Source: an uncultured beta proteobacterium (GTDB lineage Bacteria; Pseudomonadota; Gammaproteobacteria; Burkholderiales; Burkholderiaceae_C). Taken from it: 37,867 bases of DNA. This document shows, piece after piece, positions 7,546 through 24,284 of the stretch (its first letter is position 1; every line of letters starts with the position of its first letter). The stretch lies in the NCBI GenBank assembly GCA_903924955.1, contig CAIYDK010000509.1, forward strand, positions 1 through 37,867, given 5' to 3'. The translations under genes were made by a program, and so were the position numbers. Under the pieces are notes generated by a model. That model made no database searches and had not been told where the DNA came from. It saw only the letters and a list, made by a program, of their open reading frames with translations.

Positions 7546-10500
7546 ATGAATAGACTCAATCCTCCCCAAAGAGCGACTGAAGTGCTGCGCCTCTTGGGCG
7601 TGGCTCTTTTTTATGGGCTGATCGCGCTACTGGTCAATCATTATTTTTCGATCAGTGGACGCGCCAGTGTGTTCTACCTGGCTAGCGGTCTGGCGCTGGC
7701 GGCCGTGCTGATAGGCGGGCCGCGCTACTTTTGGGCGGTGTTTTTGGGTTCGCTGGTCAATAGCCTGGTGGGCGGCGTGGAGTGGTGGGGTGCAACCGGC
7801 GCGGCCCTGGGCAGCGCCCTGGCGGCGTTGGCGGGGGCATGGCTGATTCGCCGCAATGGCAAATTCAACGCCGATCTGCCATCCTTGCGTAATGTGTGGG
7901 CCGTGGTCAGCTGGGGTGGGGCAGTGGCTTGCACCATCAGCGCCACCGCCGGAAGCACCACCTTGCTGCTGCGTGGTGTGCTGGGTTTGGATGATTTTGT
8001 TCAAAACCTGGTTTATTGGTGGATGGGTGATGTATTTGGCGTGGTGGTGCTGACGCCGCTACTGCTGGTGTGGTGGTCGGTGGCCAGCCAGAAACACCCT
8101 CTGCCATCCGTACGACAAGTGGCCGAAGCGGCACTGATTTTTGCAACGACCGCCCTTGTGGGTACCGTGATTTTTCTGGACTGGGGTCACGATGGACTAC
8201 CCATGGTGGTCCATCTCGCGGTGGATGAGGTTGCGCAGGGCTACTGGATGTTTTTGTTTGTCGCCTGGACTGCGCTTCGCCTGGGCCAGCGGGGCACTTC
8301 ACTGGTGCTGCTGCTGATAGCCTGCATGGGCGCAGCAGGGGTCGTGCAGGGCACGGGGTTCTTCCGCAACAGCGTGTCGCTCTCGGACATGACGGGCTAT
8401 TGGTTCTTTAATCTGATTCTCTCCATGGTGGGGTTGTCTTTGGCCACCTATGTCACGGCCAGCAGAAAGGCGTTGGAGCGACTGGCTCGCAGCGAGGCCC
8501 GGATCAGTCTGCAATACACCAACGCGTTGGCCGCGCTCGATCATCACGCCATTGTGGCCACAGCCGATGTGCAGGGGCGCATTCTGTCGGTCAACGAGAA
8601 GTTTTGCCAGATCAGCGGCTACACGCGCGAGGAGTTGCTTGGGCAAGACCACAGCAAGCTCAACTCGGGCATCCACACCAAGGGTTTTTTCAAGGAGATG
8701 TACCTTACATTGGCCAGCGGAGAGTCTTGGCATGCTGAGGTGTGCAACCGCGCCAAAGACGGTCAGTTGTACTGGGTGCAGTCAACCATCTCCCCTTTCA
8801 TGGGCAAGGATGGAAAACCCACCATGTATGTGGCCATCCACACCGACATTACCGGGCGCAAGCGTATCGAGCTGCAATTTCAGCAGAGCCAGGAGCGTTT
8901 GCTAGTGGCCACGCGATCGGGCGGTATTGGCATTTGGGATTGGAACCTGCAGACCAATGAGTTGATCTGGGACGACATGATGCTGGTCCTCTACGGCCTG
9001 CAGCGCGAAGGCTTTTCGGGTGCCATTGATGCCTGGCAGGTCGGAATCCACCAGGATGATCTGGAAGCGCAGTTGGTCAATACACAAAACGCCATCGCGG
9101 GCACCCATGTGTTTGACACCGAGTTCAGGGTCGTGCACCCCGATGGCAGCATTCGTCACCTGAAGGCCAACGCTGACGTGGTCCGCGACTCCCAAGGCAC
9201 CGCCCTGCGCATGGTGGGCGTTAGTTGGGACATCACCGAGACAAGAAAACAGGACGCTGAACTTGCCAACTACCGCAGCAACCTGGAGCAGTTGGTCGCC
9301 AAAAAGACTGCCGAGGTGCAGGGTAGTGCTGATGCCGTCAAGCACGCGCTGTTTGAGTTGAAGCAGCAACGGCAAGTGATTGATCAGCACGCTATCGTCA
9401 CCCTGTGTGGCCTGGACGGGCGCATTACCTATGGCAACCCCAAGTTCACCGAGGTGAGCGGCTACACGCAAGACGAATTTTTGGGCCAGGACCACAAACT
9501 GGTCAACTCGGATCATCATCCGAGGGGCTTCTTTAAGGATATGTACGACACCATCAATATGGGTGGCGTGTGGCGCAGTGAAGTATGCAATCGCACCAAG
9601 GACGGCAGCCTGTACTGGGTGGACAGCACGGTGGCGGCGTTCATGGGTGAAGACGGCAAACCGCGCGAATACATTGCGGTTCGCACGGACATCACGGAGC
9701 GCAAGCGCTCCGAACACTTCGAAGTAATGCGAAGCCAGACCATGGAGCAGCTGGCTGCAGATGCGCCGCTGACCCAGGTTCTCCAGGACATTGCGCACCA
9801 TGTTGAGAGCATCAGCCCCATGCTGATTTGCAGCATCATGCTGCTCACCGAGGACGGCACTCACCTGCGCCTGGGCGCCGCACCCAGCCTGCCGGATTTT
9901 TATAACGAGGCCATCGAGAACATTGCCATTGGCCAGGGCGTAGCGTCGTGCGGTACGGCGGCCTTCACCGGCCGGCCGGTATTGGTGAACGACATTGCCA
10001 GCCACCCGTATTGGGAAAAGTACCGGGACCTGGCGGCGCGCGCCGGTCTGGGCGCCTGTTGGTCAGAGCCGGTTATCGCCATGGACGGAAAAATACTTGG
10101 CACGTTTGCCATTTATCACCGCAGTGCTCACACGCCCCAACCGGCCAACCTGGTTTTCATCTCGCTGTGCTCGCAACTGGTCGGCAGTGCGATCGAACAG
10201 CGGCGCGCCAGCACCGAGCGCAAACAAGCCGAAGAAGCCGCCCACGCCGCCAACCGCAGCAAATCGGAGTTTCTGGCCAACATGAGCCACGAGATTCGCA
10301 CGCCCATGAACGGCGTGATTGGCATGGTCGACATCCTGCAGCAAACCTCCTTGTTGCCCGAGCAGGCGCGCATGTTGGAGACCATCCATGGCTCGTCCAT
10401 GGCATTGCTGAGCATACTGAACGACATTCTGGACTTCTCCAAGATCGAGGCCGGCAAGCTCGAAGTCGAAAACATCCCAACCCATTTGCGCGAGGTCACC

Positions 10501-12351
10501 GAAGGCGTGGCGCAGTTGATGCTCAACGTAGCGGGCAGCAAAGACGCCCAAATCTCCCTGTTTGTCGACCCGGCTTTGCCCGTCTGGGTGATGTCTGACC
10601 CCACGCGCCTGCGCCAGGTGCTGTTTAACTTGCTGGGCAATGCACTCAAGTTCATCCCCAAGGGGGTGGGCCGGGCGATGCTGCATGTGCACCCCATGGT
10701 GCGACCTGACGGCGTGGACTGTGTGCAGTTCTCTGTCATCGACAACGGCATTGGCATGAGCCCCAAGGTGGTGGCAAAGCTGTTTCAACCCTTTACGCAG
10801 GCCGATGCCACGACTGCACGCAAGTTCGGCGGCACTGGCCTGGGCCTGTCGATCACGCAGCGGCTGGTGGAGATGATGGACGGGCGTATCAGCGTAACCA
10901 GCACCCCCGGTGTGGGTTCGGAATTTATGGTCGAGTTCCCGTTGCGGGCAGCCATTGCACCGAGTGGCCGCGCACCCAGCAGGACGCCCGACCTGAGCGG
11001 CCTGCGCGTGCTGGCGGTCACCCCGCTGGCAGCCTGCTCGACCTTGTTTCAGGTGTACCTGGGAGCCGCCGGTGCGCAGGTTCGCGTCGTGCCTGACCTG
11101 AGCACGGCGCGTGCCGAACTGGCCGGTATGGCTAACATCGCGCACACCGCGCAACAGCCTGGCGACATTGTGTTGCTGCTAGACCTGGATGAAGCGGGTG
11201 ACGAAGCCGATGCTCCACCCGCCGACCCAAGCGCAACTGACACTCCCTTGCCCGCCGGCGTGCGGGTGGTGCGGCTGGTGAACCGCGCCGACCACCAGGA
11301 GCCAGTGCCCGAAAGCCAGGTCCTTGAAATCCGGGTGCTCGCACGCCCCCTGTTGCACCACGACCTGATTCACGCTGTAGCCGTGGCTGGTGGGCGTGTG
11401 CGCGAGACCGATACCGTCCAGACCATCGAGAGGCGTCGCACTCCAAGGTTCAAGGCCCCCAGCGTGCAAGTAGCCGCGCAAACGGGCTGCCTGATTTTGA
11501 TTGCCGAAGACAACGAGACCAACCGCGATGTGATGCGCGAGCAACTGCGCCTGCTGGGCTACGCCTGTGAGATGGCCAACGACGGCGCGCTGGCCTTGCA
11601 GATGTGGCGGGACGGTCTAGCGGCGCGTGATGGCCAGGCGGACCGCTATGCCCTGCTGTTGACCGACTGCCATATGCCCAATATGGACGGTTTTGAGTTG
11701 ACCGAGGCGATTCGCACAACGCAGGCCGCGCTGGCGCACCTGCCCATCATCGCCATCACCGCCAACGCCATGCAAGGTGAAGCCCAGCGCTGTCGCGCGC
11801 GTGGCATGGATGACTATTTGTCCAAGCCTCTGCGCTTGAACGAGCTCGGCCCCATGCTGGCCAAGTGGATGCCCGAGGCCGTGCCCGTCATGGTGCAGCC
11901 GGACTCCGAGTACCCCGAACCCTTGCCCGTTCAAGCCGCGCTGATTCAGGGGCTCGACTCGGCTGGGGGCGATGACACCCGTGCCGTCTGGAACCAGGGC
12001 ACCCTGAATGATCTGGTGGGCGACAACCCGGTCATGCACAAGCGCCTGCTCGAAAAGTTCATGGTCAATGCCAAAGAGCAGTTGACCAGCATAGCCACCA
12101 GCACCGCCGCAGGCAAACTGAGTGAGGCCGCAGGCGTTGCCCACACGCTCAAGTCAGCCGCGCGCAGCGTGGGCGCACTGGCCCTGGGAGAACAGTGTCA
12201 GGCCATCGAGACCGCAGGCAACGCCGGCGATGCTGCCACTTGCACCGCTCTGGCGCCGGGCCTGACAGCGGCCTTTGCAGCCGCGGCACTGGCCATTAAC
12301 AGCCATTTGGCGCCACAGAGCGTTGGCATCCAGGAGAGTACTGTCACATGA
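7546..12351 (+). CDS. hybrid sensor histidine kinase: MASE1-like membrane domain, PAS/PAC repeats, GAF, HisKA-HATPase, degenerate REC, REC, Hpt
   Basis: N-terminal multi-TM region; PAS/PAC blocks ending in 'DITGRKR', 'DITETRK' and 'DITERKR'; GAF 'IGQGVASCGTAAFTGRPVLVNDIASHPYW'; H-box MSHEIRTPMNGVIGM; GGTGLGLSI; REC ILIAEDNETNRDVM...LLLTDCHMPNMDGFEL; Hpt AHTLKSAARSVGA. Confidence 0.9.
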   Translation: MNRLNPPQRATEVLRLLGVALFYGLIALLVNHYFSISGRASVFYLASGLALAAVLIGGPRYFWAVFLGSLVNSLVGGVEWWGATGAALGSALAALAGAWLIRRNGKFNADLPSLRNVWAVVSWGGAVACTISATAGSTTLLLRGVLGLDDFVQNLVYWWMGDVFGVVVLTPLLLVWWSVASQKHPLPSVRQVAEAALIFATTALVGTVIFLDWGHDGLPMVVHLAVDEVAQGYWMFLFVAWTALRLGQRGTSLVLLLIACMGAAGVVQGTGFFRNSVSLSDMTGYWFFNLILSMVGLSLATYVTASRKALERLARSEARISLQYTNALAALDHHAIVATADVQGRILSVNEKFCQISGYTREELLGQDHSKLNSGIHTKGFFKEMYLTLASGESWHAEVCNRAKDGQLYWVQSTISPFMGKDGKPTMYVAIHTDITGRKRIELQFQQSQERLLVATRSGGIGIWDWNLQTNELIWDDMMLVLYGLQREGFSGAIDAWQVGIHQDDLEAQLVNTQNAIAGTHVFDTEFRVVHPDGSIRHLKANADVVRDSQGTALRMVGVSWDITETRKQDAELANYRSNLEQLVAKKTAEVQGSADAVKHALFELKQQRQVIDQHAIVTLCGLDGRITYGNPKFTEVSGYTQDEFLGQDHKLVNSDHHPRGFFKDMYDTINMGGVWRSEVCNRTKDGSLYWVDSTVAAFMGEDGKPREYIAVRTDITERKRSEHFEVMRSQTMEQLAADAPLTQVLQDIAHHVESISPMLICSIMLLTEDGTHLRLGAAPSLPDFYNEAIENIAIGQGVASCGTAAFTGRPVLVNDIASHPYWEKYRDLAARAGLGACWSEPVIAMDGKILGTFAIYHRSAHTPQPANLVFISLCSQLVGSAIEQRRASTERKQAEEAAHAANRSKSEFLANMSHEIRTPMNGVIGMVDILQQTSLLPEQARMLETIHGSSMALLSILNDILDFSKIEAGKLEVENIPTHLREVTEGVAQLMLNVAGSKDAQISLFVDPALPVWVMSDPTRLRQVLFNLLGNALKFIPKGVGRAMLHVHPMVRPDGVDCVQFSVIDNGIGMSPKVVAKLFQPFTQADATTARKFGGTGLGLSITQRLVEMMDGRISVTSTPGVGSEFMVEFPLRAAIAPSGRAPSRTPDLSGLRVLAVTPLAACSTLFQVYLGAAGAQVRVVPDLSTARAELAGMANIAHTAQQPGDIVLLLDLDEAGDEADAPPADPSATDTPLPAGVRVVRLVNRADHQEPVPESQVLEIRVLARPLLHHDLIHAVAVAGGRVRETDTVQTIERRRTPRFKAPSVQVAAQTGCLILIAEDNETNRDVMREQLRLLGYACEMANDGALALQMWRDGLAARDGQADRYALLLTDCHMPNMDGFELTEAIRTTQAALAHLPIIAITANAMQGEAQRCRARGMDDYLSKPLRLNELGPMLAKWMPEAVPVMVQPDSEYPEPLPVQAALIQGLDSAGGDDTRAVWNQGTLNDLVGDNPVMHKRLLEKFMVNAKEQLTSIATSTAAGKLSEAAGVAHTLKSAARSVGALALGEQCQAIETAGNAGDAATCTALAPGLTAAFAAAALAINSHLAPQSVGIQESTVT

Positions 12352-13175
12352 ATCTCGAAAATCTGTTTCAGCAACCCAGAGCGTTGCCGACTATTCCCAA
12401 AGTCATGCAGGAGCTGATTACCAGTTTCAACGACGAAGATGTGGCGGTCGCACGTCTGGTGGCGCTGATCTCGAGCGACCAGGTGCTCAGCGCCAATGTG
12501 CTGCGCATGGCCAACTCGGCGTATTTCGAGGTGCCCTACACGGTGGGCACCGTGACCGATGCGGTGGCCAAGCTGGGCTTTACCAATGTGCGTTCGCTGG
12601 TGATCAGTATTGGGCTGACGGGTAGCTTCAAAAGTATTCCCGGTATCGATGCGCGACAGTTCTGGCGGCACAGTCTGCACACGGCAGTGGTCTCTCGGCA
12701 CTTGGGCGCACAAGTGGCCATCAAGCCAGATCTGGCGTTTACCGTGGGTCTGATGCACGCCATTGGCGAACTGGTGATGCACCTGGGCATGCCTCAGGAG
12801 ATGCAGGCAGTCGATGCCGCGCAGCGCCTGCTGGATCCCAACCGTCTGGCCACCGAGCAGGCTACCTTTGGCTACACGCACGCTGACGTGGGAGCTGAGT
12901 TGGCGCGCCGGTGGAAGTTTCCGACCCAGTTCTCAAAGGCCATTGCCGGCGCGGCCAACCCGCTGGCACAGACGGACTTTGATCCGCTGGCAGCCCTGGT
13001 GAATATTGCCGCCTGGCGCTCCCGGTCTCAGGAAAACCAGCTCAGCCCCCAAGAGCTGGAGGCTGACTGGTCGAGCAAGCTGGCCGCCAAAATTCCGTTG
13101 TCGCGCAATGCCGTGCTGCAAGACCTGCCGAGTCTGGAGGTGCTGAGTCAGGGGCTGGAGAGTTTGCTGGCCTGA
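12348..13175 (+). CDS. HDOD domain-containing protein
   Basis: LPTIPKVMQELI ... ISSDQVLSANVLRMANSAYFEVPYTVGTVTDAVAKLGFTNVRSLV. 4-bp overlap with the upstream kinase. Confidence 0.9.
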   Translation: MNLENLFQQPRALPTIPKVMQELITSFNDEDVAVARLVALISSDQVLSANVLRMANSAYFEVPYTVGTVTDAVAKLGFTNVRSLVISIGLTGSFKSIPGIDARQFWRHSLHTAVVSRHLGAQVAIKPDLAFTVGLMHAIGELVMHLGMPQEMQAVDAAQRLLDPNRLATEQATFGYTHADVGAELARRWKFPTQFSKAIAGAANPLAQTDFDPLAALVNIAAWRSRSQENQLSPQELEADWSSKLAAKIPLSRNAVLQDLPSLEVLSQGLESLLA

Positions 13176-13181
13176 TCTGGC

Positions 13182-16037
13182 CTACGAATTCAAAGTGGCA
13201 TCTCGCTGGCTTGCCGGAATTGACACCCGTACCATGTTCTTGACTTCGGGCAGGCAGGAGCCGCAGTTGGTGCCGCACTGAAGCGCAGCCTGTAATTGCA
13301 CCAGGCGCTGATCCTCATTGCCTTTGCAGTTGACCAGTTGTGTGGCGATGGCGCTCTCGGTCACGTTGAAGCAGGTGCAAATCTGTTTGCCGCGCGATTG
13401 CACGGCCGCCGGGGGCTTGGCACTTGGCGCGAGCAGCATGCGGCCAAAGGCCTGAGCGGGGAGTTCGTCCTGCAGCAGGGTTTTGATCCAGCTCTGGGCG
13501 CTGGTGTCGCCGGCCAGCACAAAGGCGTTGAGGCGACGTTCACCCGCCGCGTCGGCTGGCAACAACTGTATGGCGCGGCGTTGGCCGCGCTTTTTGTCGG
13601 CATAGCGCAGCACATCAATGCCGCCCAGACCCAGCACACGTTCAATGGTGGCAAGGACGTTGTCGGGTGGCGCTTCATAGGCGGCAGCGCGAAACAGGAG
13701 GCCACTGCGCTCGCGGCCAAATGGCGTGCAACTGGCAAACGAAAATAGCGCCATCAGTTCCTTGAGCTTGGCGCGCGCCTGCAGGGCCGCCTCGTCGGGC
13801 AACCAGGCCACGGCCAACAGCGACCAGGGCAGCTCGGCCTTGAGCACCTTGATGGCGGCGTGTTTGAACTCGGGCTGCTTGGAGGTGGGGCAAAAGGCCG
13901 GGCTGGTTAGCGCATTCACCCCCGACAGGCGCTCGCCAATGCTGCTGGAGCCACTTAGAAACTCTTCGCCCCAGTGCATGGCCATGAAGGTTTGTTGTGG
14001 AGCCATTGTGGCGCTGCCCAGTACGGGTACAACGATGGAGCCTCGTTTGCTGGTGACGTGCACGAGGTCGCCATCCAGCAGGCCCTGGCGGGTCATGTCC
14101 TGACGGTTCATCTCGATGGATGGCTCGCCCACATGGCCGAAAAGTCGACCCAGTGTGCCGGTACGGCTCATGCCGTGCCACTGGTCGCGCAGTCGCCCGG
14201 TGTTGAGTGAGAACGGGTAGCGCGTCTCACGCGGCTCGGCCACTGGCTTGTAGACCGTATCGGCAAATTTTGCCCTGCCATCTGCGGAGGGAAAAATGCC
14301 GTCTGCATAGAGCCGCTGCAATCCCGCTGTCTGTCCTTCGGCAAGCGGCCATTGCTGTGGGGCTTGGTCGAGCATGGCGTAGGACATGCCGGTGATGTCG
14401 AGGTCACGGCCCCGCGTGGATTCGCGGTGCTCGTTCCAGATGGACTCGGGGCTGGTGTAGGGGAATATCGGTTTACCGTGGCCCATTCCAATAGCCTCAA
14501 GGCAGCGTGCGAAGTCGATGGCTATTTTCCAGTCGTGACGCGGTCCATTTTCACGCTGCCCGGGGGGTGCGACCGCGGCCCGCACCCGAGAAATCCGGCG
14601 CTCGCTATTGGTAACGGTGCCTTCTTTTTCGCCCCAGGTGGTGGCAGGCAGCAGCAGGTCGGCGTAACGGCAGGTGGCGGTGTTGTTAAAGGCTTCCTGC
14701 ACCACCACGAACTCGGCGCGCTCCAGCGCACGGCGCACGGTGGCCTGGTCGGGCATGCTTTGGGCCGGATTGGTGCATGCAATCCACAGGGCTTTGATCT
14801 CGCCGTCGGCGGCAGCCTGGAACATCTCTATGGCGGTCTTGCCGGGTTTTTCTGGCACCGAAGGGACACCCCACAGTGCGGCAACTTCAGCGCGATGCTT
14901 TGGGTTGCCCAGGTCACGATGCGCGGACAACAGATTGGCCAGTCCACCCACTTCGCGCCCGCCCATCGCATTGGGCTGGCCGGTCAGGGAAAACGGGCCG
15001 GCCCCGGGCTTTCCGATCTGGCCGGTAGCCAGGTGCAGGTTGATGAGGGCTGCGTTCTTGGCCGTGCCACTGCTGGACTGGTTGAGGCCCTGGCAGTACA
15101 GGCTGAGCGTGGGTGTGCGCGCCGAGCCATTCAGGTGCTGCATACCGGCAAACAGGCGGGTCGCCTTGAGTAGGGCATCCTTGGTGATTCCGCAGGCCTG
15201 TGCCACCACAAATGGGTTGTAGTCGAGCACCGTGTTTTTGAGCGCTTTAAAGTCGTTCGTGTGGTTGGCGATAAAGGCCTCATCCAGCCAGCCTTCCCAG
15301 GCCATGATGTGCAGCATGCCGTTGAAGAGCATCACGTCGGTGCCTGGCTGAATGGCCAGATGCACATCGGCGATGCCGGCCGTGTCGGTGGTGCGCGGGT
15401 CAACCACCACCACGCGCAGGTTGGGGTTGGACTTTTTTGCATCTTCGATCCGGCGAAACAAAATGGGGTGCGCAAACGCGGTGTTGGAGCCTGCGATGAA
15501 GATGCACTGCGCGTGGTTGATATCGTCATAGCAGGCCGGTGGCGCGTCGGCACCCAGAGTCTGTTTGTAGCCGGCCACGGCGCTGCTCATGCACAGGCGC
15601 GAATTCGTGTCGATGTTGTTGGTGCCAATCAGACCCTTGGCCAGCTTGTTGAAGGCGTAATAGTCTTCCGTGAGCAGCTGGCCGGAAACATAAAACCCCA
15701 CAGCGTCGGGGCCCTGGCTGCGGATGATGCGCGCAAAATTATCTGTAGCAACAGCAAGCGCGGCATCCCAAGACACCGGCTGGGGCGCCTCGCCCCGATG
15801 CAAACGTTGCAAGGGTTGCAGTAGGCGGGTTTGCTGCGTGACCGCTGTGCTGGCGGTCAGGTGCAGGGTGGCACCCTTGGTACACAGGCGGCCAAAATTG
15901 GCCGGGTGATCGGGGTCCCCTCGCACCCCGGTGATCTGGCCGCCCTCGGACTCTATGATGACGCCACAGCCCACACCGCAGTAGGGGCAGGTTGATGGGG
16001 TCTGGCGAAGTGCGGTCATGGATGGGCTTGCGTGCAA
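13182..16037 (-). CDS. nasA: assimilatory nitrate reductase catalytic subunit, C-terminal BFD-like [2Fe-2S] domain
   Basis: CPYCGVGCGVIIE Fe-S motif; molybdopterin oxidoreductase motifs (GFYVSGQLLTEDYYAFNKLAKG, NSRLCMSSAVAGYK); C-terminal ICTCFNVTESAI...CGTNCGSCLPEVK. Confidence 0.95.
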   Translation of the reverse strand: MHASPSMTALRQTPSTCPYCGVGCGVIIESEGGQITGVRGDPDHPANFGRLCTKGATLHLTASTAVTQQTRLLQPLQRLHRGEAPQPVSWDAALAVATDNFARIIRSQGPDAVGFYVSGQLLTEDYYAFNKLAKGLIGTNNIDTNSRLCMSSAVAGYKQTLGADAPPACYDDINHAQCIFIAGSNTAFAHPILFRRIEDAKKSNPNLRVVVVDPRTTDTAGIADVHLAIQPGTDVMLFNGMLHIMAWEGWLDEAFIANHTNDFKALKNTVLDYNPFVVAQACGITKDALLKATRLFAGMQHLNGSARTPTLSLYCQGLNQSSSGTAKNAALINLHLATGQIGKPGAGPFSLTGQPNAMGGREVGGLANLLSAHRDLGNPKHRAEVAALWGVPSVPEKPGKTAIEMFQAAADGEIKALWIACTNPAQSMPDQATVRRALERAEFVVVQEAFNNTATCRYADLLLPATTWGEKEGTVTNSERRISRVRAAVAPPGQRENGPRHDWKIAIDFARCLEAIGMGHGKPIFPYTSPESIWNEHRESTRGRDLDITGMSYAMLDQAPQQWPLAEGQTAGLQRLYADGIFPSADGRAKFADTVYKPVAEPRETRYPFSLNTGRLRDQWHGMSRTGTLGRLFGHVGEPSIEMNRQDMTRQGLLDGDLVHVTSKRGSIVVPVLGSATMAPQQTFMAMHWGEEFLSGSSSIGERLSGVNALTSPAFCPTSKQPEFKHAAIKVLKAELPWSLLAVAWLPDEAALQARAKLKELMALFSFASCTPFGRERSGLLFRAAAYEAPPDNVLATIERVLGLGGIDVLRYADKKRGQRRAIQLLPADAAGERRLNAFVLAGDTSAQSWIKTLLQDELPAQAFGRMLLAPSAKPPAAVQSRGKQICTCFNVTESAIATQLVNCKGNEDQRLVQLQAALQCGTNCGSCLPEVKNMVRVSIPASQRDATLNS

Positions 16038-16066: not shown

Positions 16067-16450
16067 TCAGGAAGCGGCGCAGCCGGACTTGGGTCCGGCA
16101 ACGGGGCGGGTCTGGTCAATGGCGTGGCTGGCCAGTTCTACGGTTTTGAGTGACACCTGAGCGCCTTCTACCTTGACTGCAAACTTGGGCGTGCAGCCTG
16201 CGTCGGGCGCTGCCGCCTGGCCGGTGCACAGGCCAATCGTCCAGTTGTGCAGTGGGCAGGCCACGCTGGTTCCAAACACAATGCCTTGTGACAGCGGTCC
16301 GCCCTTGTGCGGGCAGTGGTCCAGCAGAGCGAAGACTTCGTTGGCGTCGTTGCGGAACACGGCCACGTCCAAGCCTTGGGTACGGGCGACGCGGCGCGAG
16401 CCCAGTACGGGGATGTCTTCAACGTGGCAAATCGGGGTCCATTCACTCAT
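16067..16450 (-). CDS. nirD: nitrite reductase (NADH) small subunit, Rieske-type
   Basis: ICHVEDIPVLGSRRVARTQGLDVAVFRNDANEVFALLDHCPHKGGPLSQGIVFGTSVACPLHNW, with CxH...CxxH ligands. Confidence 0.93.
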   Translation of the reverse strand: MSEWTPICHVEDIPVLGSRRVARTQGLDVAVFRNDANEVFALLDHCPHKGGPLSQGIVFGTSVACPLHNWTIGLCTGQAAAPDAGCTPKFAVKVEGAQVSLKTVELASHAIDQTRPVAGPKSGCAAS

Positions 16451-16513: not shown

Positions 16514-17314
16514 TTATGTTCGTTGGTTGGCGTACATTCCGGTTACGCGATCCATGACGATCAGCAGGTTCTCGCTGGCCTGGAAAACGTCGATCAGCGC
16601 TTTGGGCGTGCTCGACTCGGTAAGGGTTACCTTTTTCAATGCCGACTCAAAGAACAGCCACTGGCCGTCGGCGACTTTGAGGTCGTCTTCAATTTTTTGT
16701 GTGGTCTCGGGTGCCTTGTGCAGAAGGACCATGGCACCACTGAACTCGCTGCGTGCTTTCTCGATTTCGGCGCTGGCCGTTGCTGCATCAACCGGGAGCC
16801 TTGCCGCCATGAAATACATGGCCATGCGTTGACTCAGCATGCGTTGGCGCCCGGCAATATTGACCAGTTTTCCCAAGGGCTTGGCTTGCACCATCTCATA
16901 TTGCACCGTGCCTTGATGGGCCAGTGTCAGCACACCGGCGTTGAGCTGCAACATATTTGCAGCATTCTCGCGGGAGGGCGCGCTGCCTACCAATGCGGCT
17001 TTGTAGCCGTTCCAGGACGTTTCCAGTTTGGAGTAGGTGTCCTTGATGTCGGCCGATGAGGCATAGGATTTGAGCTCGACCAACTGGCGGTCAAACAGGG
17101 CCATTGATTTGTCCAGGGCGGCCTGTGCGGTGGATTTTTCGATGCCATGCACTAGCGCCAGCCAGGCCTTGCCCATGCGCTGGCTCAGCATACGCTGGCG
17201 CCCCGCCTTGTTGATGGCGTCGCCCAGGTCGGTGACCTGGGCATGCACGCTCAGCAGGGGCAGGCCGACGGCGGCAATCATCAATGTTCTACGGCTTAGC
17301 AGGCTTGGTTTCAT
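16514..17314 (-). CDS. exported PilJ-N/NarX P-box-like protein with two P-box motifs and no output domain
   Basis: Twin-arginine-like leader MKPSLLSRRTLMIAAVGLPLLSVHA; INKAGRQRMLSQRM and VNIAGRQRMLSQRM. The rest is helical, with no further TM or signalling domain recognised. Confidence 0.85.
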   Translation of the reverse strand: MKPSLLSRRTLMIAAVGLPLLSVHAQVTDLGDAINKAGRQRMLSQRMGKAWLALVHGIEKSTAQAALDKSMALFDRQLVELKSYASSADIKDTYSKLETSWNGYKAALVGSAPSRENAANMLQLNAGVLTLAHQGTVQYEMVQAKPLGKLVNIAGRQRMLSQRMAMYFMAARLPVDAATASAEIEKARSEFSGAMVLLHKAPETTQKIEDDLKVADGQWLFFESALKKVTLTESSTPKALIDVFQASENLLIVMDRVTGMYANQRT

Positions 17315-17429: not shown

Positions 17430-19895
17430 TCAAGCGCCCAGTGCTTCGAACTGCCGGGTGTCCACTGCGGCTTCCTTGAAGTCAAACCACGGGTCAGGCT
17501 CTCCCTCGAGTGCCTGCTGCAATTGCACCCACAGTGTCTTGCGGCCTTTATGGTCATCCAGGATGCGCTTTTTGACGTAATCCAGGCCGACGCGGGCAAC
17601 AAAATGCACCGTGCGCTCCAGGTACCAGCCTTCCTGGCGGTAGAGCTGGCAGAAGGCACCGGTGTACTCCAGCACCTCAGCCGCCGTCTTGACCTTGACC
17701 AGGAAGTGGGCGACTTCGGTCTTGATGCCGCCGTTGCCGGCCACATACATTTCCCAGCCACTGTCCACACCGATGATGCCCACGTCCTTGATGCCGGCCT
17801 CGGCGCAGTTGCGCGGGCAGCCCGACACGGCGAACTTGACCTTGTGGGGTGCATACATTCCCACAAAAGCACGCTCCAGGTCCTTGCCCATCTGCGTGCT
17901 GTCCTGCGTACCCATGCGGCACCACTCACTGCCTACGCAGGTTTTCACCGTGCGCAGCGCCTTGGCGTAGGCGTGTCCGCTGGGCATGCCGATGTCCTTC
18001 CAGACGTTGACCAGGTCTTCCTTCTTCACACCCAGCAGGTCGATACGCTGGCCTCCGGTGACCTTGACGGTAGGAATTTTGTACTTGTCCACAGCGTCAG
18101 CAATGCGGCGCAATTCACTGGCCGTGGTTTCGCCGCCCCACATACGGGGAATGACGCTGTAGGTGCCGTCCTTCTGGATGTTGGCGTGACTGCGCTCGTT
18201 GATGAAGCGGCTTTGCGGGTCATCTTTTGCCTCTTTGGGCCAGGTGCTGATCAGGTAGTAGTTAACGGCAGGGCGGCACGATGCACATCCGTTGGGTGTC
18301 CTCCACTCCATGAACTGAAACACGCTGGCAATGGTCAGCAACGTGTTGGTGCGGATCGCGTCGCGCACGGCCTGGTGGCCATGGTCGGTGCAACTGCACA
18401 GGGCCTTGAGCTTGGGCGTGGCCGAGTAGTCGCCGCCGGCAGTGAACATCAGCAACTGCTCCACCAGGCCGGTGCAGGAGCCGCACGACGCGCTGGCCTT
18501 GGTGTGCTTGCGTACCTCGTCCAGCGTGAACAGCCCCTTTTCCTTGATGGCCTTGCAGATGGCGCCCTTGGTCACGCCATTGCAGCCGCACACCTCGGCG
18601 CTGTCAGGCATGGATGCGGCCTTGCAATGGCCTTCGTGGCCCACATCACCGATGTTGGACTCGCCGAACATCAGCTTGTCGCGGATGTCGCTTACGCTGC
18701 GCCCATCGCGTAACAGCTTGAAGTACCAGCTGCCGTCCACTGTGTCGCCATACAGACAGGCGCCGACCAGCTTGTCGTCCTTGATGACCAGCTTTTTGTA
18801 GACACCGCCATAGGGGTCGCTCATGATCAGTTCTTCGGTGCCTTCGCCCCCCGTGAAATCGCCCGCGCTGAACAGGTCAATACCGGTGACCTTGAGCTTG
18901 GTCGACGTGAGGGAACCTTTGTACTGGCCAATGCCGAACTGTGCCAGGTGGTTGGCTGCGACCTTAGCCTGTTCAAACAGCGGCGCGACCAGACCGTAGG
19001 CAATGCCACGGTGGGCCGCACATTCTCCAACCGAGTAAATGCGCGCATCGGTGGTGGTCTGCATGGTGTCGTTGACCACAATACCCTTGTTGCAGTGCAG
19101 GCGCATGCTTTCCGCCAACTGGGTATTGGGGCGAATGCCCACCGCCATCACCACCAGGTCGGCGGCAACGCAAGTGCCGTCCTTGAATTGGATGGATTGG
19201 ACGCGGCCACCTTTGCCATCGCAGGCGTTGCCGACCAGCGCTTGCGTTTGCGCGCCCATCAAAAACTTCAGGCCGCGGTCTTCGAGCGACTTTTGCAGCA
19301 TCTTGCCAGCCACGGTGTCCAACTGGCGTTCCATCAGCGTGGGCATCACGTGCACGACGGTCACGTTCATGCCACGCAGCATCAGGCCATTGGCCGCTTC
19401 GAGGCCCAGCAGGCCACCACCGATGACGACGGCGTTCCTGTACCGCTTCGACGCGTCAATCATGGCCTCGGTGTCTGCAATGTCGCGGTAGGCAATGACG
19501 CCTTCGAGCTCTTTGCCGGGAACGGGCAGGATAAAGGGGTTGGAGCCGGTGCACAGTAGCAGGCGGTCGTACGCGGACTCGGTGCCGTCGTTGGCGCGCA
19601 CGATGCGCTTGATGCGGTCGACTTCGACTACTTTTTTTCCGGCGTGCAGGGTGATGTGGTTGTCTTTGTACCAGTCCCAGGAGTTGAGCACGATCTCGTC
19701 AAGGGTCTGTTCGCCGGCCAGCACCGGCGAGAGCAAAATACGGTTGTAGTTGGGGTGTGGCTCAGCGCCAAATACGGTGACGTCGTAGAGTTCGGGGGCA
19801 ATCTTCAGTAGCTCTTCTAGAGTGCGCACACCCGCCATGCCATTGCCGACCATGACGAGCTTCTGTTTTGTTTTGACTTGCATGTCCATGGTCAT
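17430..19895 (-). CDS. nirB: nitrite reductase (NADH) large subunit
   Basis: VGNGMAGVRTLEELL FAD motif; CGCNGVTKGAI, CGSCTGLVEQLL BFD-type domain; siroheme/4Fe-4S CVGSEWCRMGTQDS...SGCPRNCAEAGIKDVG. Confidence 0.96.
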   Translation of the reverse strand: MTMDMQVKTKQKLVMVGNGMAGVRTLEELLKIAPELYDVTVFGAEPHPNYNRILLSPVLAGEQTLDEIVLNSWDWYKDNHITLHAGKKVVEVDRIKRIVRANDGTESAYDRLLLCTGSNPFILPVPGKELEGVIAYRDIADTEAMIDASKRYRNAVVIGGGLLGLEAANGLMLRGMNVTVVHVMPTLMERQLDTVAGKMLQKSLEDRGLKFLMGAQTQALVGNACDGKGGRVQSIQFKDGTCVAADLVVMAVGIRPNTQLAESMRLHCNKGIVVNDTMQTTTDARIYSVGECAAHRGIAYGLVAPLFEQAKVAANHLAQFGIGQYKGSLTSTKLKVTGIDLFSAGDFTGGEGTEELIMSDPYGGVYKKLVIKDDKLVGACLYGDTVDGSWYFKLLRDGRSVSDIRDKLMFGESNIGDVGHEGHCKAASMPDSAEVCGCNGVTKGAICKAIKEKGLFTLDEVRKHTKASASCGSCTGLVEQLLMFTAGGDYSATPKLKALCSCTDHGHQAVRDAIRTNTLLTIASVFQFMEWRTPNGCASCRPAVNYYLISTWPKEAKDDPQSRFINERSHANIQKDGTYSVIPRMWGGETTASELRRIADAVDKYKIPTVKVTGGQRIDLLGVKKEDLVNVWKDIGMPSGHAYAKALRTVKTCVGSEWCRMGTQDSTQMGKDLERAFVGMYAPHKVKFAVSGCPRNCAEAGIKDVGIIGVDSGWEMYVAGNGGIKTEVAHFLVKVKTAAEVLEYTGAFCQLYRQEGWYLERTVHFVARVGLDYVKKRILDDHKGRKTLWVQLQQALEGEPDPWFDFKEAAVDTRQFEALGA

Positions 19896-20719
19896 GCCGC
19901 CTTTTCTACGTGGGCTTGCCGTGTGTACAGAAAGTCGATCACGGCCTTGCGGTAACCCAGGTATTGCGCACTGTCAGCCAGCGCTACGCGGTTGCGGGGA
20001 CGGGCTAGATCCACATGCAGCACTTCGCCAATGGTTGCAGCAGGTCCGTTGGTCAGCATCACGATCTTGTCGGACAGCAGCACGGCCTCATCTACGTCGT
20101 GCGTCACCATCACCACGGTGCTGTGGGTGCGCGCCACGATGTCAAGCAACTCGTCTTGCAACTTGGCGCGTGTCAATGCGTCCAGCGCACCAAAGGGTTC
20201 ATCCATCAGCAGGACCTTGGGTTCCATGGCGAGGGCCCGAGCAATGCCCACGCGTTGCTTCATGCCTCCGGAGATTTCGCCAGGGCGCTTTTGGGCAGCC
20301 GGCGTCAGGCCCACCAAGGCCAGCGCGGCATCGGTGCGCGCCATGAGTTGCGCTTTGTTCTCAGATGGTGCGCCGGTGCTCCTGGATGCTGCACCAAAGA
20401 CGCGCTCCACACCCAGGTAAACGTTCTCAAAGCAGCTCAGCCAGGGCAGCAGGGAATGGTTCTGGAAAACCACTGCGCGTTCTGGGCCCGGGCCTGCGAT
20501 CTCGCGGTTGGCGCAGAGCAGGGTGCCTGCGGTGGGCAGGGTCAGTCCGGCAATCAGGTTCAACAAGGTTGATTTGCCGCAACCGGAGTGGCCGATCAGG
20601 GTCACGAATTCGCCCTTTGCCACGGTCAGGTTGACTTCGCGCAACGCGGGGAAAAAGCCTTTGCGGGTTCTGAAGGTTTGTTCAACGTTCTGGATATCGA
20701 TGTATTTCAAGTTGGTCAT
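19892..20719 (-). CDS. nitrate ABC transporter ATP-binding protein
   Basis: Walker A GHSGCGKSTLLN; signature region 'GEISGGMKQRVGIARALAMEPKVLLMDEPFGALD'. 4-bp overlap with nirB. Confidence 0.93.
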   Translation of the reverse strand: MTNLKYIDIQNVEQTFRTRKGFFPALREVNLTVAKGEFVTLIGHSGCGKSTLLNLIAGLTLPTAGTLLCANREIAGPGPERAVVFQNHSLLPWLSCFENVYLGVERVFGAASRSTGAPSENKAQLMARTDAALALVGLTPAAQKRPGEISGGMKQRVGIARALAMEPKVLLMDEPFGALDALTRAKLQDELLDIVARTHSTVVMVTHDVDEAVLLSDKIVMLTNGPAATIGEVLHVDLARPRNRVALADSAQYLGYRKAVIDFLYTRQAHVEKAA

Positions 20720-21666
20720 GACTTCACCTCTTCAAACGTAAATGCGGTGGCGATTTTGATCAGGGCGTATTCCAGTACCAGGCCCACAATGCCAATCACG
20801 AAGATGGCAATGATGATGTTCTTGACGTTGAGGTTGTTCCACTCGTCCCACACCCAAAAGCCGATGCCCACGCCGCCCGTTAGCATCTCGGCGGCCACGA
20901 TCACCAGCCAGGCGGTGCCCACGGCCAGGCGCACGCCGGTCAACATATAGGGCAGCACGGCGGGGAACAGGATTTTGGTGACGATCTTCCACTCGGAAAG
21001 GTTCAGCACACGCGCCACATTCATGTAGTCCTGGGGTACACGCTGCACACCGACCGCGGTATTGATGACCATGGGCCAGATGGAGCAGATGAAGATGGTC
21101 CAGATGGCCGCCGGGTTGGCTCCCTTGAATACCATCAGACCAATCGGTAGCCAGGCCAGTGGGGACACCGGACGCAGCAGGCTGATCAGCGGGTTGAACA
21201 TGCGGCCGAGAAATTCGAAGCGGCCAATTGCAAAACCAGCCGGTATGCCCACGGCTGCCGCCAGGCCAAAGCCTATTGCCACGCGCTCCAATGACATCAG
21301 CACATTCCAGCCCACGCCCTGGTCGTTGGGCCCCTTGCGGTAGAACGGATCGCTGAACAGCACCACGGCCTGCTTCCAGGTTTCCCATGGGCTGGGAATG
21401 TTGCTGGCCGTGCTGATGCTGACTACGGCCCAGATGCCGATGAGCAGGCACAGGCCCAACAAGGGCGGCAACACTGCCATCACCAGGCCGCGCCAGTCGC
21501 GCGGGGAGCGTACCGCAGTCGATGCGGAGGTCATCACCGTCTGGGTCGAGGAATCCAAGGCTTTTAGGCCGATAGCCCCCGTGGAATGTGCGTGGGCAGC
21601 TTCTTTTTTCATAGCAATTCTATCGGTCGCCGCGGCCAAGGGGGAGTGGAAAACTGCGCTTACCAT
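20716..21666 (-). CDS. ntrB: nitrate ABC transporter permease
   Basis: MVSAVFHSPLAAATDRIAMKK...; permease motif 'AVGIPAGFAIGRFEFLGRMFNPLISLLRPVSPLAWLPIGLMVF'. ATG at 21666 with a GGAGCTC-type RBS upstream. 4-bp overlap with the ATPase gene. Confidence 0.93.
   Translation of the reverse strand: MVSAVFHSPLAAATDRIAMKKEAAHAHSTGAIGLKALDSSTQTVMTSASTAVRSPRDWRGLVMAVLPPLLGLCLLIGIWAVVSISTASNIPSPWETWKQAVVLFSDPFYRKGPNDQGVGWNVLMSLERVAIGFGLAAAVGIPAGFAIGRFEFLGRMFNPLISLLRPVSPLAWLPIGLMVFKGANPAAIWTIFICSIWPMVINTAVGVQRVPQDYMNVARVLNLSEWKIVTKILFPAVLPYMLTGVRLAVGTAWLVIVAAEMLTGGVGIGFWVWDEWNNLNVKNIIIAIFVIGIVGLVLEYALIKIATAFTFEEVKS
21567..21615 (-). repeat. copy E of the 49-bp dispersed repeat, inside ntrB
   Basis: Minus strand GCTATGAAAAAAGAAGCTGCCCACGCACATTCCACGGGGGCTATCGGCC, encoding IAMKKEAAHAHSTGAIGL. 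Confidence 0.65.
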
Positions 21667-21676
21667 GGTGAGCTCC

Positions 21677-22933
21677 TTAGGCTTTGATCTTGAAACCGTC
21701 GGCGTACTTCTTGGGATCTTTGCCGTCCCACACCACACCGTCCATGAACTTGGCCGAGCGCATCGCGTCCTTCGGAATCGGGGCCTTGGCAGCAGTGGCG
21801 GCCTGCTTGTAAATGTCGACCTGGTTGATCTGCTTGGCCACTGCCAGGTAGTCGGGGTGGTCTTTGAGCAAGCCCCAGCGCTTGTGCTGGGTCATGAACC
21901 ACATGCCGTCGGACAAATAGGGGAAGGTGACTGTGCCTTCGTTGAAAAACTTCATGTGGTTGGGGTCGTCCCAGGTTCTGCCCATGCCGTTCTGGTAGCG
22001 CCCCAGGATGCGCTGGTTGATCGCGTCGACGCTGGTGTTGACATAGCTCTTGTCGGCAATGGTTTCAGCCATTTTGTTTTTGTTGGACAGACTGGCGTCA
22101 ATCCACTGGCCGGCCTCAATGATGGCGGCTGTCACCGCGCGGGCCGTGTTGGGGTATTTTTTGACGAAATCGCCTGTGGTGCCCAGCACCTTTTCGGGGT
22201 GATCTTTCCAGATGTCTTGCGTAGTCGCGGCCGTCACGCCAATGCCGTCAATGATGGCTCTGTGGTTCCAGGGTTCGCCCACGCAGTAGCCATCCATGTT
22301 GCCCACACGCATGTTGGCCACCATTTGCGGAGGTGGTACCGTGATGACCTTGGCGTCCGTCATGGGGTTGATGCCGTTTGCCGCCAGCCAGTAGTACAGC
22401 CACATGGCATGGGTGCCGGTGGGGAAGGTTTGGGCGAAGGTGTAGTCCTGACCCGGCGGGCGCTTTTCGGCGGCCATCAATTTTGCAAGGCCGGCACCGT
22501 CCACCGCACCCTTGTCGGCGAGCTTTTTCGACAGGGTGATTGCCTGGCCATTCTGGTTCAGGGTCATCAGCACAGCCATGTCCTTTTTGGGGCCGCTGAT
22601 GCCGAGGTGCACACCGTAGATCAGGCCGTAGAGCGCGTGGGCAAAGTCCAGCTCGCCGTTGACCAGTTTGTCGCGCACGCCGGCCCAGGAGGCTTCCTTG
22701 CTGGGAATGATCTTGACCCCGTATTTCTTGTCAAAACCCAACACGCAGGCCATGACCACGCTGGCGCAGTCAGTCAAAGGGATGAATCCGATCTTGACCT
22801 CGGCCTTCTCCGGTGCGTCGGAGCCAGCGGCATAGACCGCTGCACGCAATGCTGGGTTGATGCCGATGGCGCCCACGGCAGCCGACTGAAGCACCGAGCG
22901 GCGGCTGAGCTTATTGTTTAAAAGGTTGGTCAT
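21677..22933 (-). CDS. nrtA: CmpA/NrtA family nitrate ABC substrate-binding protein, Tat signal
   Basis: MTNLLNNKLSRRSVLQSAAVGAIG (Tat-like leader); EKAEVKIGFIPLTDCASVVMA; VGNMDGYCVGEPWNHRAI. Confidence 0.92.
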   Translation of the reverse strand: MTNLLNNKLSRRSVLQSAAVGAIGINPALRAAVYAAGSDAPEKAEVKIGFIPLTDCASVVMACVLGFDKKYGVKIIPSKEASWAGVRDKLVNGELDFAHALYGLIYGVHLGISGPKKDMAVLMTLNQNGQAITLSKKLADKGAVDGAGLAKLMAAEKRPPGQDYTFAQTFPTGTHAMWLYYWLAANGINPMTDAKVITVPPPQMVANMRVGNMDGYCVGEPWNHRAIIDGIGVTAATTQDIWKDHPEKVLGTTGDFVKKYPNTARAVTAAIIEAGQWIDASLSNKNKMAETIADKSYVNTSVDAINQRILGRYQNGMGRTWDDPNHMKFFNEGTVTFPYLSDGMWFMTQHKRWGLLKDHPDYLAVAKQINQVDIYKQAATAAKAPIPKDAMRSAKFMDGVVWDGKDPKKYADGFKIKA

Positions 22934-22971
22934 GGCATACATCCTTCGTAAAGTTGACGACTGCAAACGAG

Positions 22972-23033
22972 AAAAGGCGTCCTCACGCTGCGGGGACTTG
23001 TCGGGCAAGTCGTGTACAGGTGGGGACGCCTTT
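22972..23033 (-). terminator. intrinsic terminator-like hairpin (attenuator) in the nrtA leader
   Basis: Minus strand AAGGCGTCC ... GGACGCCTT followed by TTC; an inner hairpin GACTTG-CCCGA-CAAGTC (22995-23011) sits in its loop. Lies about 40 nt upstream of the nrtA ATG. Confidence 0.75.
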
Positions 23034-23212: not shown

Positions 23213-23587
23213 ATGCAAACCGAATCGTCCAAAGCAAGAACCAACCGCTGTGTTCCGGTCGAGCAGTGGCCAGAATCACTGGAGCTGCTGCGCTATCTTG
23301 CCATCCAAAAAAATCCCTTGTCGGTTAGGGATTTGTCTCACGAAGTGAGCGCTCCGGAGATCTCCACACGCAATCGACTGGCTCGACTGGAGGCTGAAGG
23401 TGCGGTGAGTGCATCGCGTGCCACTTCTATCCTGGGTCCTGGCAAACAGGTGGTATGCGCGCATTACGTCATCACGCAGTACGGCAGGGATTGCGCGGGC
23501 CTGCGCTCGCAGGCCACGGAAAATGCACCACGTCCGTGCGTTAACAGCGTCTTCGCGTTGGCGAAGGCGATGAATCTCGGGTTCTGA
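23213..23587 (+). CDS. small winged-helix-like protein divergent from the nrtA operon
   Basis: ELLRYLAIQKNPLSVRDLSHEVSAPEISTRNRLARLEAEGAVSASR resembles a wHTH with recognition helix and wing. 124 aa. Confidence 0.6.
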   Translation: MQTESSKARTNRCVPVEQWPESLELLRYLAIQKNPLSVRDLSHEVSAPEISTRNRLARLEAEGAVSASRATSILGPGKQVVCAHYVITQYGRDCAGLRSQATENAPRPCVNSVFALAKAMNLGF

Positions 23588-23624: not shown

Positions 23625-24284
23625 TCAGCCTAATAGCTCGGCCACGTCCAGCATGCGCTGGGCGACATCAATTATTTTCAGGTTCTTGTCCATCGCGGTC
23701 TTGCGTAATTTCTCGTAGGCAACCGGCTCGCTCAGGCCCTGGCGCTGCATCAGCAGGCCCTTGGCACGTTCAATGATGCGGCGGTTTTTGAGTTCGGTAC
23801 TCAGGTCCAGCAGTTCGGTCTTCGCATCCGCCAACTCAGCCCGCAACGCCTGTTCGTGTTCAAAGCGTGCCATTGCAACATTCAAAATGGGGCGAATGCG
23901 ATGCGGTGACAGACCGGCCACGATGTAGGCCGACACCCCGGCCGCCACGGCGGCGCGCGCGTTGGAGGTGTCGTCATCGTTGGTGAACATGACAATGGGG
24001 CGTCGCGCATTGCGCGTGGCTACGACGACATGTTCGAGCGCATCGCGAGCGTCGCTTTCAGCGTCCAGAATGATCAGATCCGCCTGCAATTGTCCTAGGC
24101 GCTCCTGTAGGTAGGTGTCGGCCGGAAGTACTGCGACCAGGTTGAAGCCGCTTTCCAGCAAGGCGATGCGCAGACTGCGCGAACGCTCGGCCTGTTGCAG
24201 GGCGTGGGCATCGTCCTGGTCGGCAATGTCCAGATCGGGGGCTACAACAACAATTCGCAGGGCTTCAAGCATGGTGTTGAACAT
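23625..24284 (-). CDS. nasT: ANTAR-domain response regulator, NasT-like
   Basis: C-terminal ANTAR block ELKNRRIIERAKGLLMQRQGLSEPVAYEKLRKTAMDKNLKIIDVAQRMLDVAELL; N-terminal REC-like domain (ADLIILDAESD). Confidence 0.88.
   Translation of the reverse strand: MFNTMLEALRIVVVAPDLDIADQDDAHALQQAERSRSLRIALLESGFNLVAVLPADTYLQERLGQLQADLIILDAESDARDALEHVVVATRNARRPIVMFTNDDDTSNARAAVAAGVSAYIVAGLSPHRIRPILNVAMARFEHEQALRAELADAKTELLDLSTELKNRRIIERAKGLLMQRQGLSEPVAYEKLRKTAMDKNLKIIDVAQRMLDVAELLG

Follow-up and report, generated by a model that had tools for sequence, protein, structure and literature searches.

Background

In McpN, NarX and NarQ one nitrate is held between two N-box helices. Those PilJ domains with an N-box that PMC6381276 covers are parts of transducers (kinases, chemoreceptors, cyclases and regulators), and the pattern [IVL]-[ND]-x-A-G-x-Q-R-M-L-[ST]-Q was derived by Martin-Mora et al. 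for those that bind nitrate (PMC6381276). The ligand-binding domain of McpN (PA2788, PDB 6GCV, PF13675) is a single four-helix PilJ bundle, anchored in an MCP with transmembrane and signalling parts, and the R61A mutant loses nitrate binding (PMC6381276). NarX and NarQ are membrane histidine kinases with HAMP and one sensor domain per chain, in which the P-box helix carries G-x-x-R. Not every PilJ domain binds nitrate: the P. aeruginosa chemoreceptor PilJ has two consecutive PilJ domains and an MCP output, yet it has no N-box and binds no nitrate (PMC6381276). In the cytoplasm, the NIT-ANTAR protein NasR (PDB 4AKK) is an eight-helix single-chain nitrate receptor that controls a nas operon, with an asymmetric site in which both arginines are present (review, PMC8199190).

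The PilJ module, its nitrate chemistry and the nitrate assimilation operon are already known. Here we describe a gene, called X below, which places two such modules in a free exported protein. It lies in a contig of 37,867 nucleotides (CAIYDK010000509.1, the window) from an uncultured beta proteobacterium of the Burkholderiaceae_C. Within the open-licence PMC literature we found no description of stand-alone exported tandem N-box proteins, though an earlier mention elsewhere is possible.

Results

A tandem N-box protein encoded between nirB and nirD

The features of the locus are listed in Table 1. On the minus strand the gene order is nasT-nrtA-nrtB-nrtC-nirB-X-nirD-nasA, and X starts with an ATG preceded by a GAGG Shine-Dalgarno sequence of its own. 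No terminator-like sites were found on the strand of X in the gaps at either side of it, and X is probably cotranscribed with the flanking nir and nas genes. An Rfam scan of the operon gave zero matches at the gathering score. Between nasT and nrtA a terminator-like hairpin with a T-run is present (23311-23334, minus strand), a plausible target of NasT antitermination. At its other end, the operon meets a block of the opposite strand 3' to 3' (window 7546-16037), where nasA faces a hybrid sensor kinase and an HDOD-like gene.

Table 1. Features of X and its operon in the window, with residue numbers referring to X.
Feature	Position	Strand	Evidence
X, exported tandem-PilJ protein, 266 aa	16514..17314	-	Pfam PilJ, AlphaFold, dN/dS
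Tat-like signal peptide (SRRTLM; SVHA, cleavage before Q), residues 1-25	17240..17314	-	leader alignment
PilJ domain 1, residues 30-144; helices H30-56, H60-84, H88-109, H115-143	16883..17227	-	Pfam, AlphaFold
N-box 1 INKAGRQRMLSQRM, residues 34-47; predicted nitrate Arg R41, Gly G38	17174..17215	-	motif, alignment
PilJ domain 2, residues 146-262; helices H146-170, H177-200, H206-227, H237-262	16529..16879	-	profile search, AlphaFold
N-box 2 VNIAGRQRMLSQRM, residues 151-164; predicted nitrate Arg R158, Gly G155	16823..16864	-	motif, alignment
nirB, upstream of X, 115 nt gap	17430..19895	-	TIGR02374, 918 bits
nirD, downstream of X, 63 nt gap	16067..16450	-	TIGR02378, 82.7 bits
Assimilatory nitrate reductase (nasA/nasC type), C-terminal BFD-like Fe-S domain	13182..16037	-	profile matches
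nrtC-type ABC ATPase	19892..20719	-	Pfam
nrtB-type permease	20716..21738	-	Pfam
nrtA nitrate-binding protein (NMT1_2; own twin-arginine leader)	21677..23008	-	Pfam
nasT-type ANTAR regulator (REC-like + ANTAR), without the PilJ tail of sister taxa	23625..24284	-	

Against Pfam, X matches PilJ (PF13675) in two stretches with E=6.5e-26 (91.1 bits, gathering threshold 26.6), and in the whole-genome search each repeat singly exceeds the curated PilJ cut-off (57.1 and 40.1 bits). The single NCBIfam match, below threshold, is to the NarQ sensor region. The two halves align with each other (35% over 80 aa, E=1e-12) and are hence homologous, which makes X an internal duplication. Both repeats fit the N-box pattern perfectly, and the arginine of the box is the counterpart of McpN R61; where NarX and NarQ read G-S-L-R-M-Q-S-Y-R, X reads G-R-Q-R-M-L-S-Q-R. 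Given the length and composition of X, chance alone would yield about 5e-9 matches to the pattern, which rules out a chance motif. The two motifs lie exactly where they had been reported, 117 residues apart.

Neither Pfam nor NCBIfam finds a HAMP, kinase or MCP domain in X, and no transmembrane helix or hydrophobic segment follows the leader, in agreement with the preliminary description, which had recognised no output domain. X therefore lacks what defines the NarX/NarQ kinases (transmembrane helices, HAMP, histidine kinase) and the MCPs (transmembrane part, MCP signalling domain). It also differs from NrtA-type proteins, having neither an alpha/beta two-lobed fold nor an NMT1_2 match. NIT (PF08376) gives no Pfam match in X.

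The leader of X reads MKPSLLSRRTLMIAAVGLPLLSVHA, with the mature protein beginning at the following Q. A twin-arginine-like leader had been noted beforehand, and the comparison bears this out: among X and its relatives 78 of 81 leaders contain RR, and 78 of 80 have a cleavage site of the AxA type. Leaders are Tat-like in the nirB clade, whereas those of the Sulfurimicrobium, gammaproteobacterial and other-family relatives are Sec-like, indicating that export rather than the Tat route is the conserved trait. Judged from the leader and the missing further hydrophobic stretch, X is predicted to be soluble and periplasmic. With nirB and nirD identified by profile at either side, X thus stands as initially portrayed: a stand-alone exported protein with two motifs.

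An AlphaFold model (built on a 53-sequence alignment; pLDDT 90.5, pTM 0.86) shows eight helices arranged as two four-helix bundles, with a two-residue break at 144-145. The preliminary description had proposed a comparison with the four-helix bundles of NarX-type sensors, and the predicted structure is indeed of the McpN/NarX kind: the most probable Foldseek match is the nitrate-bound McpN ligand-binding domain 6gcv (probability 1.00, 2.5 A over 124 columns). All eight helices also match NasR (4akk), but the superposition is weak (TM 0.37-0.42, 9.5-9.8 A). From the model, the short linker would be compatible with side-by-side bundles sharing one site, as in the NarX and McpN dimers, and a single-chain pseudo-dimer is plausible.

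Conservation and genomic contexts

We fetched 80 relatives of X with peptide patterns that partly overlap the N-box, for which reason this set is biased to intact boxes. The order nirB-X-nirD-nasA is kept in 64 of the 80, a positive outcome for the synteny survey that had been suggested. In 11 further loci the gene upstream of X can be aligned with NirB over the N-terminal, FAD/NAD(P)-binding part alone and nirD is absent, with nasA downstream of X in 10 of these; 3 of the 80 place X in a cd1-nitrite-reductase/heme d1 cluster. In the last two the neighbour is a different molybdenum reductase (L068) or an ammonium transporter (L027). With a dN/dS of 0.06-0.22, X is a real gene under purifying selection. 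G38, R41, G155 and R158 do not vary among 53 aligned relatives, the most distant of them at 34% identity.

A less biased view comes from searching 201 genomes of the family with an HMM and comparing X with nirB and nasA there. A strong X is present in 38 genomes; from the coordinates, it lies directly 3' of nirB in 26 and beside nasA in 4 of these. nirB is found in 37 of 38 genomes with X against 119 of 163 without (Fisher p=4e-4, ignoring the kinship of the genomes), and since 119 genomes hold nirB without X, the latter is an accessory gene. Among retrieved copies, all 24 adjacent to nirB and all 4 adjacent to nasA have an unbroken G-x-x-R in both boxes; for copies elsewhere this holds for 8 of 12, with the 4 losses all in box 1. 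At the level of the class, 25 of 369 genomes match, mostly with stand-alone proteins of 260-320 aa with two intact N-boxes. There, nap genes (L135), narX-narL (L132) and an arrangement nasT-nrtABC-nasS-X, whose X carries a stop codon, add independent N-oxyanion contexts, alongside neighbourhoods of housekeeping genes.

Some intact copies adjoin housekeeping genes, one of them between ubiA and proC (L150) in a genome (G384) without a nirB or nasA match, and consequently the link of X to N-oxyanions is strong, not universal. The earlier suggestion of co-expression with nitrite reduction fits the operon and its conservation, but the association is with nitrate and nitrite metabolism at large and not with nirBD only, as X also occurs with nasA without nirD, with cd1-type nir genes and, in a few genomes, alone.

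Several loci deserve separate mention. X is tandemly duplicated in L004:6001-7671 (nirB-X-X-nirD), in G493 (same genus, L158), in L127 and in L146. In L146 and L159 the molybdenum cofactor gene moaA has as its neighbour an exported tandem-PilJ paralogue whose first N-box is broken. A fusion of a CAP12/Pycsar-type TIR domain with ATP-grasp adjoins the pair of X genes in L127 (8330-9775, minus strand). A PP2C phosphatase/Ser-Thr kinase fusion occupies the interval from the MFS transporter to nirB in both MFS-type clusters tested (L032:1455-3260 and L066:2626-4470, both minus strand). Several nasA-type reductase matches (e.g. G408:C82, G536:C29) hold one TGA within the matched stretch.

An ANTAR-fused relative of X

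In 19 of the 80 loci a REC-like/ANTAR protein with two C-terminal PilJ domains (ANTAR-PilJ2) is encoded divergently from nirB, for example at L002:1826-3136 (minus strand); in 4 of the 19 the reading frame was not recovered intact. Its last 237 residues align with X end to end (32% identity, E=1e-20). Unlike X, it has no leader and is fused to the RNA-binding ANTAR domain; box 1 reads VNRxGQLRM. In the tree, the modules fused to ANTAR group in a single clade that excludes X, which argues against X being a recent fragment of such a protein. A search of the window genome found no ANTAR-PilJ2 protein, and a plain NasT takes its place.

The AlphaFold model of ANTAR-PilJ2 (pTM 0.62) matches ANTAR/REC structures such as EutV, with NasR absent among the best 50, and the final ANTAR helix seems continuous with the first N-box helix (H176-214). 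The protein looks like a cytoplasmic analogue of NasR in which PilJ replaces NIT, and its domain make-up suggests an apparent nitrate-responsive antiterminator. As such an analogue it would tie the tandem module to nitrate control of the nirB operon. This architecture is likewise without a description in the open-licence PMC literature, with an earlier mention elsewhere possible.

Discussion

Taken together, we propose that X is a soluble stand-alone periplasmic receptor for nitrate, and possibly nitrite, with two N-box bundles, made along with the cytoplasmic assimilation enzymes (probability about 0.65). The nitrate/nitrite-binding protein originally envisaged is thereby upheld as regards export, the two NarX/McpN-type modules and the operon, while binding itself is predicted from the motifs. 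A Tat-type leader would export the product, two PilJ four-helix bundles each with an intact N-box. Most likely the bundles would either face each other within the chain (a pseudo-dimer with one shared site) or dimerise domain by domain. The ligand would then lock or stabilise one conformation, and the response to it may come from a membrane partner, from a transporter or just from the pool of free ligand. Acting with a lineage-specific membrane partner, or on the ligand pool, is possible for X. NasR may offer a parallel as an eight-helix single-chain receptor.

Several other explanations can be given for the same locus. It might be argued that the N-box helix is conserved just because folding or dimerisation requires it and that X has a role other than N-oxyanion binding, as intact copies away from nirB and nasA (L150, L152 and L154) could suggest. 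Paralogues with a degenerate first box, however, retain the two domains in tandem and still score about 1e-45 to 1e-54 against the X profile, which shows that the glycine and arginine are dispensable for the fold; given that both are invariant wherever X adjoins nirB or nasA, they are not merely structural, and we regard this explanation as rather unlikely. We think it quite unlikely that X does no more than buffer the ligand, or that it is a redundant remnant split from the ANTAR-PilJ2 regulator. Its module is homologous to the C-terminal half of that protein and most nirB-bearing relatives do without X, but the ANTAR-PilJ2 modules make up a separate clade that is not nested in X, the two proteins are both present in 19 loci, the exported form also occurs widely in other families, and a remnant would hardly keep a signal peptide and both boxes. 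A decayed regulator fragment as such is ruled out by the dN/dS values and the tree.

The remaining explanations give X a partner. Capture of substrate for an uptake system, whether NrtABC or NarK-type, would fit the export leader and the position of X behind nrtABC on the same strand. Still, NrtA is already a dedicated binding protein, an MFS transporter normally works without one, and the fold and site of the predicted structure are of the sensor type instead of the Venus-flytrap type. Nrt genes are nearby in only 13 of the 80 loci and an MFS transporter in about 32, and 18 of the 19 ANTAR-PilJ2 loci have neither in view. Delivery to NrtA, as had been put forward, is therefore improbable as the role of the family, given that X is also retained with MFS transporters, and we hold feeding of any uptake system to be very unlikely. 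Somewhat tentatively, X could be a periplasmic accessory subunit which modulates a membrane sensor or transducer (as TorT does for TorS), such as a NarX-type kinase or a chemoreceptor. This would account for a sensor-type module without an output domain; narX-narL and X share one cluster in L132, MCP-type genes seem, by the look of the sequence, to flank distant relatives in L137 and L140, and among the proteins of the window genome is a P-box-bearing NarX-type kinase (L082). On the other hand, X has no conserved partner in the family, and its nirB neighbourhoods show no recurrent sensor kinase. The particular idea of an adaptor for a NarX-type kinase finds no backing in co-occurrence (20 of 38 genomes with X against 19 of 38 without), and such a kinase is unsupported as an obligate partner.

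Returning to the receptor reading, one can speculate, with considerable reserve, that the X pseudo-dimer reports periplasmic nitrate to a membrane partner while the ANTAR-fused module senses the cytoplasmic pool on behalf of the same operon. If true, two compartments would be sampled by one receptor design. A single-chain pseudo-dimer, should it exist, would be handy for dissecting the helix movement that one nitrate causes between two N-boxes, and ANTAR-PilJ2 suggests a further, easily assayed nitrate-sensing route besides NasS-NasT and NasR. Overall, a conserved free exported form whose gene separates nirB from nirD would count as a new component of the nitrate assimilation machinery, in hosts that are common freshwater and soil Burkholderiales such as Rhodoferax, Acidovorax, Hydrogenophaga and Polaromonas.
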